NCBI GenBank assembly: GCA_036169595.1
Contig: CM069765.1
Span: 3,005,001 to 3,042,500 of the forward strand
Direction: 5' to 3'
DNA from: Dictyostelium firmibasis
Taxonomy: Eukaryota > Evosea > Eumycetozoa > Dictyosteliales > Dictyosteliaceae
Length of the DNA: 37,500 nt
Part shown: positions 3,936 through 30,479 of the stretch, one piece after another
Numbering within the stretch: position 1 is the first letter of the stretch
Layout: the number at the start of each line of letters is the position of its first letter
Program-made: the position numbers and the translations under genes
Notes under the pieces: model-generated
Database searches by the model: none
The model's input: only the letters and a program-made list of their open reading frames with translations
What the model was told of the DNA's origin: nothing

Positions 3936-6002
<2,067 letters not shown>

Positions 6003-24755: not shown

Positions 24756-25217
24756 ATTTAAAAAATACTTCATCACACAAGAAGAAAAAGATCTCATCCA
24801 CCAAAAAAAAAAAAAAAAATTACAATAATTCTATTGAAAAAAAAAAAAAAAAAAAGAAAAAGAAAAAAAAAAAAAAAAAAGAAAAAGAAAAAAAAAGAAA
24901 AAAATAATTAAAAAAAAAAATATAAACATAAAAAAAAAATAAAAAAATAAAAAACAATTTTTTAAAAAAAAAAAAGCCTACAATCTTATTATTATTATTT
25001 CTAAAAAAAAAACAATAATAATTTGCTTCCAAATCAGGTTTTGTTTTAATTTTTTAAATTAGTGAGGTATTAAACAACGTTATTGGAAATTTTCGGTTTT
25101 TTTTACAAAAAAAAAAAAAAAAAAAATTTCACGAATTTTTTTTTTTTTTTTGGGCGAGTCGCCAACTATTTTTTTTTTTTTATAATATTTGATTATCTGT
25201 ATAGCATCCATATCACA
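24756..25217. other. Intergenic region pan3 - rpl31
   Basis: About 460 bases, mostly poly-A and A-rich runs (24802-24975), followed by T-rich promoter sequence of rpl31. Read in the minus frame it yields only poly-Phe. No gene is seen. Confidence 0.6.
25153..25163. promoter_or_regulatory. GC-rich inverted repeat in the rpl31 promoter
   Basis: GGCGA-g-TCGCC, a perfect 5-bp inverted repeat with one central base, embedded between T runs about 55 bases before the rpl31 ATG. A GC-rich dyad in a region that is otherwise almost pure A/T is a plausible binding site, but no factor is known to me for it. Confidence 0.4.
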
Positions 25218-25909
25218 ATGTCATCATCTGAAGCCGTCACCAGAGAATACACCATCAATCTCCACAAGAGACTCTATGGAACGTATGTAAAATGTTAATT
25301 CATATCTCAATCCTTAATTTATCTTTTTTTTTTCGAAGATTGGGATAGATTGAGGATAAAGGATTATTACATTTTGCAGGGGTCAGGTGTTTTGTATCTA
25401 TTGCAAACATAAAGTTCCTTTATGTTTCGATAGGGTATACAAGAGCAGTCATTCTGCCACCTCTTTGCGTAGTTGTGGCACTCACACTACGTACTTTTAG
25501 AGAGTCTTATACTTAATACAATCATTTGGTCCTTGTCAAATAAAAAAAATACATAGCGTGTTTTTGTTAACCATCATTGTTTTTTTTATTTTACCATTAT
25601 CATTGATTTTGTAAAATATAAATTCCTTAAAAATATAGTACCTTCAAGGATAGAGCTCCAAAAGCTATCAAACAAGTCAAGCTCTTTGCTCAAAAGATCA
25701 TGGGTACCAAAGATGTCCGTATTGATAACAAATTAAACAAATACTTATGGAGTCAAGGTATCAAGAACGTTCCACACAGAGTCCGTGTCAGTCTCTCAAG
25801 AAAGAGAAACGAAGACGAAAACGCAACTGAAAAATTATACACTCTTGCTTCTTTAGTCATCGTTAAGAGCTTCAGAGGTCTCCAAACCAAAAAAGTTGCT
25901 GACAACTAA
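25218..25909 (+). CDS. rpl31: 60S ribosomal protein L31 (eL31)
   Basis: Structural protein of the large ribosomal subunit, near the peptide exit tunnel. Exon 1 is 25218-25282 and exon 2 is 25639-25909, giving 111 aa. Family landmarks: VTREYTINLHKRLYGTTF (human VTREYTINIHKRIHGVGF), MGTKDVRIDNKLNKYLWSQGIKNVPHRVRVSLSRKRNEDE and LYTLASLVIVKSFRGLQT. The intron splits the codon in GGA-ACT, so the protein reads GTTFKDRAP. The start ATG has the A-rich context usual here (CACAATG). The intron is 356 bases, clearly longer than most others in this window and less AT-rich in its middle; see the ncRNA candidate. An AATAAA motif follows the stop near 25927. Codons such as GCC, GTC and AAC are more frequent than in neighbours, as expected for a highly expressed gene. 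Confidence 0.97.
25306..25523 (+). ncRNA. Candidate structured RNA inside the rpl31 intron (possibly H/ACA-like snoRNA)
   Basis: Within the intron lies a block of mixed sequence with strong inverted repeats. Hairpin A, 25392-25442: 6 bp (TTGTAT/ATACAA), 4 bp (CTAT/ATAG, GGT bulge), then 10 bp (AAACATAAAG/CTTTATGTTT) with a 3-base loop. Hairpin B, 25466-25493: CGTAG/CTACG with flanking U-A and G-U pairs, then TGTG/CACA, 5-base loop. Between them, AGAGCA at 25442-25447 fits the H-box ANANNA, and an ACA occurs at 25518-25520. A further pair, CTCAATC/GATTGAG, lies at 25306-25312 and 25348-25354. Ribosomal protein introns commonly host snoRNAs in other eukaryotes. The lower stem of a classical 3' H/ACA domain was not found, so the class is uncertain; C and D boxes are absent. 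Confidence 0.4.
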
Positions 25910-29926: not shown

Positions 29927-30378
29927 GGATCCACAAAAAATCGGTAAAATTGGATATTAAAAAAAAATTGTAAAGAACGCAATGTAATAAATTACTTTTA
30001 AATATTTATAATTTTATTTATTTATTTATTTATTTATTTTAATAATATATTTATTTGATGACAAATAATTTAATGAAAGAATGTTAGCTTTTATATTAAA
30101 AATAAAGTGTTGATTTGATTATTATAATATTAAGATTAATATGTGATATTTGATATTCATTGAAATTAGAAAGTGTGTGTGTGGTAAGAAGTATGAAAAT
30201 ATAAATTGTTAGAAAGTTGTTTTTAACCTATTGTCGGTTATGATTCTTCATGTAATCTGTGATTTACGATCTGTAATCTTCGATCTTCGATCGAAGATTT
30301 AATATCAGAGATTTACTTCAGATTTGTTGTTATCTGATGATTTTATCTTACCTGATTCTCCACAAAATTTTCATCCAA
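28934..30378. other. Intergenic region with Pol III-like relics and short repeats
   Basis: About 1.4 kb upstream of the tRNA-Cys gene. It contains an exact 15-bp direct repeat CCACAAAAAATCGGT (29875-29889 and 29931-29945) with a partial third copy near 29686, a 14-bp palindrome (29719-29732), a T-arm-like sequence (29730-29746), a decayed tRNA-like stretch on the minus strand (about 29795-29875), a hairpin ACCACG/CGTGGT (about 29790-29806), a (TTTA)n run near 30007-30038, and a 16-bp palindrome (30283-30298). No protein gene is supported. Confidence 0.5.
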
Positions 30379-30450
30379 GTTTCGATAGCTCAGTGGAAGA
30401 GCAAGCGACTGCAAATCGTTAGGTCGCCAGTTCAATCCTGGTTCGGAACT
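30379..30450 (+). tRNA. tRNA-Cys (anticodon GCA)
   Basis: A full cloverleaf of 72 bases without an intron. Acceptor stem GTTTCGA pairs with TCGGAAC over seven positions (one G-U). D arm GCTC/GAGC, anticodon arm AGCGA-CTGCAAA-TCGTT with anticodon GCA at 30411-30413, variable loop AGGTC, T arm GCCAG-TTCAATC-CTGGT (closing G-U), and discriminator T, as usual for Cys. The internal A box TAGCTCAGTGG (30386-30396) and B box around GTTCAATCC are present. A TTTT Pol III terminator follows at about 30454-30457. CCA is not encoded, as in eukaryotes. Confidence 0.97.
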
Positions 30451-30479
30451 TCCTTTTGTAAAATAGTGTCTGGTGCGTG

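Follow-up and report, generated by a model that had tools for sequence, protein, structure and literature searches.

Zipper stems shorten long introns of yeast ribosomal protein genes, such as that of rp51b, and unproductive splicing of ribosomal protein genes occurs in worms and other animals. In budding yeast, the intron of RPL22B carries a stem-loop on which both the inhibition of splicing and the binding of the gene's own product depend, as described in the available part of PMC4838235. In Dictyostelium discoideum, two miRNAs, mir-1180 and mir-7102, are intronic according to the accessible text of PMC6161686. A limited search of the open-licence literature, covering titles and abstract openings, returned no structured regulatory intron in a dictyostelid ribosomal protein gene. 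The intron considered here belongs to the eL31 gene of Dictyostelium firmibasis and lies in a window of 37,500 nt, the whole stretch of DNA that was analysed. It is the sole intron of the gene, and it begins with GTATGT and ends with ATATAG.

25218..25282, + strand: eL31 exon 1, MSSSEAVTREYTINLHKRLYG plus 2 nt, placed by translation and by Pfam and PDB alignment over the junction
25283..25638, + strand: eL31 intron, 356 nt, placed by gapless alignment of the spliced product
25639..25909, + strand: eL31 exon 2, including the stop codon, placed by Pfam match

Joining the two exons yields an eL31 protein of 111 amino acids that matches Pfam family PF01198 over residues 5–85 (3.3e-41). When the spliced product is aligned to a solved eL31 chain in the PDB, the junction is free of gaps, and the intron is therefore placed at 25283–25638. 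The Pfam match and the gapless junction confirm the intron of 356 bases that an earlier note on this DNA had proposed. A profile search of the 31,455,843-bp assembly (12 contigs) matched PF01198 at one place in the genome, which is exon 2 of this gene. With exon 2 as the query, no other dictyostelid eL31 was recovered from the genome-contig or viral-contig collections.

The intron as a whole has a folding energy of −89.4 kcal/mol (z −6.98), and none of 100 shuffled sequences was as stable. An ab initio prediction over the window and 20 samples of 10 kb, 237.5 kb of this genome in all, gave 105 introns, among which the eL31 intron ranks first, with a z-score of −5.76 against −3.99 for the runner-up; the comparison introns are crude and predicted only, and the finder had misplaced the eL31 intron (25287), which was replaced by hand with the true one. 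Its energy per base is the lowest among the introns listed from the ab-initio set. The first 100 nt at the 5′ end reach a z-score of −4.4, unmatched in 200 shuffles. The minus strand of the intron is also structured, with z-scores of −4.3 and −3.7 in two runs. Six other introns of ribosomal protein or L7Ae-family genes, whose ends were drawn by eye and three of which are putative 5′-leader introns, gave z-scores of +1.9, +1.1, +0.85, +0.4, −1.5 and −3.55; the last of these folds more strongly on its minus strand. The earlier note's claim that the intron harbours a structured RNA is supported.

Observations at related loci are recorded here in their own right. The eL32 gene (locus L025, about 1240–1460) has a likely 5′-leader intron with the inverted pair CTCTCACCC...GGGTGAGAG. 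A stretch of that intron, GATTGGATAAGATTGAGGAT, resembles GATTGGGATAGATTGAGGAT at 25338–25357 of the eL31 intron, within the domain termed D1 below; the fold of the eL32 leader intron is no better than shuffles. Two L7Ae-family genes, on C3 and C4 (loci L029 and L030), are eS12-like and have equal family scores, which suggests a recent duplicate.

These amoebae were grown at 22 °C in the work described in PMC11014262. For this temperature, the predicted fold of the eL31 intron consists of two tight and adjacent RNA domains, D1 and D2, followed by a plain tail.

25286..25378, + strand: D1, a 93-nt hairpin, from fold prediction and shuffles
25366..25379, + strand: decoy 3′ splice site ATTACATTTTGCAG, splice-site weight (PWM) 6.17, predicted to be buried in D1/D2
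25379..25533, + strand: D2, a closed branched domain with a GC content of 39%, from fold prediction and shuffles
25535..25638, + strand: AT-rich tail with the real 3′ splice site and the inner 3′ site 25556, z −0.95

D1 is a strong additional hairpin that is absent from the description in the earlier note. Its outer stem brings positions +4 to +13 of the intron together with 25369–25378, directly before the decoy 3′ splice site, and its inner stem comprises 16 bp (25310–25325/25342–25357). The segment 25283–25379 has a z-score of −5.9 at 22 °C, unmatched in 300 shuffles, and among 17,521 windows of 97 nt (GC 0.19–0.31) only five are at least as stable. G–U pairs account for 7 of 36 pairs in D1 and 9 of 62 in D2. 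The outer stem of D1 has a p-value of 0.0024, which is optimistic because the stem was picked from the fold beforehand; the same holds for the p-values of stems and flanks in D2.

Two further repeats were noted. At locus L003, about 5741–5840, a strong inverted repeat, TTTTTTCTCACACC...GGTGTGAGAAAAAA, lies in a low-GC stretch and is nearly as stable as D1. In the eL31 intron itself, a near-direct repeat of 16 nt (88%) occupies both ends, as TGTAAAATGTTAATTC at 25286–25301 and TGTAAAATATAAATTC at 25610–25625; it may be an AT-rich coincidence, an insertion relic, or two rivals for the partner 25369–25378.

D2 is built from the following elements.

25379..25389 / 25523..25533, + strand: P1, closing stem of D2, from the fold and pairing tests
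25392..25397 / 25516..25521, + strand: P2, TTGTAT with ATACAA
25398..25433, + strand: hairpin A core, 16 bp with one bulged C and a 3-nt loop, pair probability 0.99–1.0 at 22 and 37 °C
25434..25439 / 25508..25513, + strand: P4, from the fold
25442..25447, + strand: AGAGCA, H-box-like, mostly paired
25445..25457, + strand: small hairpin GCAG/CTGC, from the fold
25461..25504, + strand: hairpin B with lower stem CTCTT/GAGAG, z −2.83
25518..25520, + strand: ACA, within P2 in the closed form of D2

Taken as 25378–25534, D2 has z-scores of −5.6 at 22 °C and −5.3 at 37 °C, with no shuffle among 300 as stable in either case. Its minus strand is weaker (z −2.1 versus −5.6; in a second run, −2.55 versus −4.9). 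None of 855 sampled 157-nt windows with GC 0.37–0.41 is as stable as D2, and six of 3,773 are when the GC range is 0.32–0.46. The GC content of 39% compares with a median of 13.5% in 51 predicted introns.

Hairpin A, the second hairpin at 25466–25493, AGAGCA at 25442–25447 and ACA at 25518 are all present as the earlier note described them. The enclosure of hairpins A and B by long stems in the single domain D2 was missing from that account. The note had also judged the two hairpins to be beyond chance; this stands for the intron as a whole (0 of 100 shuffles) and weakens for its parts, hairpin A alone being less special and hairpin B alone modest. With its three-part stem (25390–25444), hairpin A reaches −18.9 kcal/mol and a z-score of −5.0 (0 of 200 shuffles). 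Set against 70,430 windows of 59 nt, coding sequence included, this energy is inside the top 0.5% (−16.7) but short of the top 0.1% (−20.9). Hairpin B gave z −2.9 with 2 of 200 shuffles as stable, and z −2.4 and −2.8 with 3 of 300 each.

The enclosing flanks of D2, at 25370–25397 and 25514–25545, were equalled by one of 5000 shuffled pairs at 22 °C and by none of 5000 at 37 °C. For the narrower flanks, 25378–25397 and 25514–25534, the shares were 0.001 and 0.0012. Places of the same geometry in the window matched the flanks of D2 in 0 of 1470 cases at 22 °C and in 2 of 1470 at 37 °C. P4 alone is insignificant (p 0.18–0.22). In an isolated 157-nt RNA at 37 °C, the closed form of D2 has an energy of −50.0 kcal/mol, versus −39.9 kcal/mol for a form with a long hairpin A; TTGTAT at 25392–25397 is partnered by ATACAA at 25516–25521 in the former and at 25437–25442 in the latter. 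Within the whole intron, P1 has a pair probability of about 0.6 at 22 °C, and the best 37 °C fold gives its strands other partners. From these predictions, the intron RNA may be able to switch between forms.

Splice sites were scored with weights derived from 51 high-scoring predicted introns. The score of 9.19 for the real 5′ site equals the median; that of 4.60 for the real 3′ site lies near the lower quartile and is exceeded by three inner 3′ sites, namely 25338 (5.57), 25379 (6.17) and 25556 (6.36). When the intron is folded with its exons at 22 °C, the decoy at 25379 is buried, with unpaired probabilities of at most 0.08 across 25369–25381 and of 0.26 at 25368; the real 3′ site and the AG of 25556 are largely unpaired. 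Most of the real 5′ site is paired in the same fold, where the only open positions in 25280–25288 are 25285 (0.98) and 25286 (0.47). Past 25379, no inner 5′ site reaches the 5th percentile of 4.60; the two highest are 25611, at 4.36 and 28 nt before the intron end, and 25394, at 3.73. Splicing to 25379 would add 39 codons past the junction codon before a stop, and retention of the intron would bring a stop after four. With D1 and D2 looped out, about 107 nt would separate the splice sites; the median length of the 51 predicted introns is 105 nt, with an interquartile range of 85–242 and at least 250 nt in 11 of the 51.

It is proposed, tentatively and with a probability of about 0.36, that this intron acts in cis, through its structure, on the splicing of the eL31 pre-mRNA that contains it. 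This reading is ranked first, by a narrow margin over a hosted non-coding RNA, because the modelled D1 engages the 5′ flank, the decoy is hidden and the effective length is usual. D1 and D2 are predicted to fold side by side directly past the 5′ splice site, with D1 tying intron positions +4 to +13 to the bases before the decoy. The decoy would thereby be hidden while the real 3′ site stays mostly open, and looping out of both domains would bring the splice sites to a separation near that of the median predicted intron. Such a folded intron would be spliced at its real sites. Opening of the fold, or a bound protein that locks it, would stall splicing or move it to 25379. Because the 5′ site lies partly within the fold, eL31 would be the natural candidate for the bound protein, and by analogy eL31 itself is suggested as the signal to which the intron responds. 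Use of 25379 would join exon 1 to D2, so that translation would stop after 39 foreign codons and give no eL31. Intron structure that touches the splice sites, as looked for in an autoregulatory ribosomal protein intron, is present here by prediction. The earlier note had offered a splicing or autoregulatory element, and a small-RNA precursor, as secondary readings of hairpin A; both are retained as candidates here, the former in first place.

Several observations favour control of splicing. D1 and D2 were each unmatched in 300 shuffles, D2 is stronger on the transcribed strand, and other introns of ribosomal protein or L7Ae-family genes are not folded alike on the sense strand. The decoy scores 6.17 against 4.60 for the real 3′ site, and there is no good downstream inner 5′ site for a cassette exon. 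Hiding of the decoy is not a full account, however, because 25556 scores 6.36 and has its AG open in the fold. The mostly paired real 5′ site, which is not explained without a further factor, also counts against this reading, as do the probability of only about 0.6 for P1 in the whole intron at 22 °C, the other partners that its strands take at 37 °C, the lack of significance of P4, the wide spread of intron lengths and the structured minus strand.

The proposed arrangement shares features with each of the systems described above. As with the rp51b zipper, pairing would loop out most of a long intron and set the splice sites at their usual distance; the eL31 intron differs in having two closed domains beside the 5′ site, one of which would hide a decoy 3′ site. 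As in unproductive splicing, an alternative site would lead to an mRNA with an early stop, although use of the eL31 decoy is predicted only. The RPL22B intron of PMC4838235, as far as the available text goes, likewise has a stem-loop within a ribosomal protein intron, and it shows that such an autoregulated system can exist in yeast. It concerns another protein and another lineage, whereas the eL31 fold is larger and involves the flank of the 5′ splice site, and protein binding by it is a conjecture. The mir-1180 and mir-7102 loci in the accessible text of PMC6161686 resemble the eL31 intron in that a stable hairpin lies inside the intron of a protein gene; D2 is branched, in contrast to one long hairpin.

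A more elaborate version, in which the eL31 gene contains an RNA switch whose alternative partners sense eL31 or ribosome supply and choose the real or the hidden 3′ site, is unlikely on present modelling. Its candidate alternative partners would be TTGTAT with the two copies of ATACAA, and TGTAAAAT of D1 with a near copy by the 3′ end.

Several other classes were considered and rejected. At gathering score, Rfam 15 reports only a tRNA in the window and no match in the eL31 intron. With E-values up to 10, the region 25200–25700 gave five matches, to four miRNA families and to SNORD72, all far under their cut-offs; the lowest E-value belonged to MIR815, at 19.2 bits versus the 63 needed. Rfam searches of 14 of the 20 genome samples, and of ten loci that include the eL31 locus, yielded no snoRNA, and for that reason the silence of Rfam is weak evidence. 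As a separate observation, a tRNA-Cys (GCA) gene lies on the + strand of the window at 30378–30453. A box C/D snoRNA was rejected, since the + strand of the intron lacks CTGA and any C box (RTGATGA), even when one mismatch is allowed; one CTGA and two C boxes with a single mismatch occur on the minus strand. The DUSE of Class I RNAs lies about 60 nt upstream and contains three consecutive C in group 4, according to the available text of PMC7919456. A dictyostelid Class I RNA was rejected, as no CCC (the DUSE core) occurs on the + strand at 25100–25400. A cassette exon was set aside for want of a good inner 5′ splice site. D2 as a coding block was also dismissed: its codon scores are −0.40, −0.40 and −0.45 in the three frames, versus a 5th percentile of −0.20 in 552 pieces of long open frames, in a test that is weak for short pieces because the true exon 1 scores just −0.23. 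The frame that runs on from exon 1 is open for 39 codons through D2 (25380–25498), is not coding-like and is taken as chance. A repeat or mobile element was rejected, since a DNA search of the genome found the intron and D2 in single copy; a single-sequence covariance model of D2 found no second copy in 244.8 kb.

The earlier note read the intron as an H/ACA snoRNA with AGAGCA as the H box and a downstream ACA, a proposal that is now rejected on topology, box accessibility and energy and is very improbable. The order of hairpin, AGAGCA, hairpin and ACA does resemble such an RNA, as do the distances of 14 and 13 nt from the upper stems to the boxes. Hairpin A, however, has no open pocket, strands 25398–25403 and 25428–25433 pairing with a probability of at least 0.97, and the H box is mostly paired. 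AGAGCA has unpaired probabilities of at most 0.41, and its GCA of at most 0.01, in RNAs of 134 and 157 nt. For the ACA box, which in this class is single-stranded and three bases from the 3′ end, ACA 25518–25520 is unpaired at 0.43–0.61 in the 134-nt RNA and at 0.01–0.06 in the 157-nt RNA. Forcing the H/ACA form on 134 nt gives −19.9 versus −39.0 kcal/mol at 37 °C, which places it 19 kcal/mol above the minimum, and −29.7 versus −53.9 kcal/mol at 22 °C. When hairpins preceding a box were scanned for a pocket open on two sides, the sole form found for AGAGCA (−11.3 kcal/mol) requires an opened hairpin A stem. Pocketed units cost +2.3 kcal/mol before ACA 25518, with a lower stem of at least 4 bp, and +5.6 kcal/mol before ACA 25551. 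The note had called the 3′ lower stem unconvincing; the lower stem before ACA 25518 has only three bases and is not firm. Negative energies occur elsewhere, at ATA 25509 (−5.6), ACA 25439 (−8.3) and ACA 25484 (−18.5), the latter two in folds that depart from the note's hairpins. Another unit pair, AAAGGA 25358 as the H box with ACA 25439, reaches −17.9 kcal/mol together and speaks for a snoRNA; its ACA side breaks hairpin A. The boxes are commonplace: the intron's + strand contains 16 ANANNA and 6 ACA. Complementarity of the pocket to rRNA, which the note had put forward as a check, was assessed for 17S and 5.8S and lends no support: the best match by a pair-type-weighted score is at chance, being equalled in 32 of 60 shuffled rRNAs and in 142 of 200 shuffled guides. 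By a narrower score, the top pocket match is 17S T1004 with 9 of 10 pairs, a point in favour of a snoRNA, since the CCGTCGTAG context of T1004 is that of the yeast snR31 site; it comes third in the fuller score, and the narrow-score control (0 of 200) cannot be relied on, its shuffled rRNA having been mixed with masked N letters. A longer complementarity between D2 and 17S is within the range of 12 shuffles. In AT-rich DNA, the order of hairpin, box, hairpin and ACA does not by itself point reliably to an H/ACA snoRNA, and this intron serves as a worked warning.

The other alternatives divide the same structural evidence differently. D2 might be an intron-hosted, discrete non-coding RNA, about 155 nt long, trimmed from the excised lariat and of a class outside Rfam, with P1 joining its ends and protecting it; this is doubtful, yet the foremost of the alternatives. 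The GC-rich block roughly coincides with closed D2 (39% versus 13.5%), P1 starts where D1 stops, and ncRNAs in the genomes of dictyostelids are less AT-rich according to the available part of PMC11014262. The Rfam result for the samples and loci makes a missed dictyostelid RNA plausible, and a hosted RNA is unaffected by the open 25556 and the buried 5′ site, which are both awkward for the splicing model. It must be squared with a single copy in the genome DNA search and in the covariance search, with the missing CCC of a group-4 DUSE, which would leave it dependent on the host gene, and with the box C/D snoRNAs of the D. discoideum set in the accessible text of PMC8817022, which are all intergenic except CD38. 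Chance, by which functionless inverted stretches in an AT-rich intron have arisen as a neutral by-product, is improbable. Stability like that of hairpin A is found within the best 0.5% of windows and that of D1 is matched by five of 17,521, the evidence comes from one species and one copy, and the minus strand of the whole intron is likewise structured. First rank among 105 introns, the unmatched shuffles for D1 and D2, the strand asymmetry of D2 and the absence of an equally stable window among 855 of matched GC all argue against it. More improbable again is an intronic miRNA locus in which D1, hairpin A or both are precursors of DrnB-dependent small RNAs. Such a locus is possible because mir-1180 and mir-7102 are intronic in D. 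discoideum, and the criterion of less than −0.2 kcal/mol/nt in the same available text (PMC6161686) compares with −0.287 for the D1 region and −0.32 for hairpin A. At 93 nt, D1 is also inside the usual 75–125 nt of amoebozoan pre-miRNAs (PMC11014262, available part). Only nine miRNAs were called in D. firmibasis in that paper, the Rfam miRNA matches are far below cut-off, and hairpin A is short, with a 3-nt loop.

If the reading of the eL31 intron as a cis-acting structure in its own splicing is true, control of ribosomal protein supply by intron folds would extend to Amoebozoa, and would do so near an easily edited organism.
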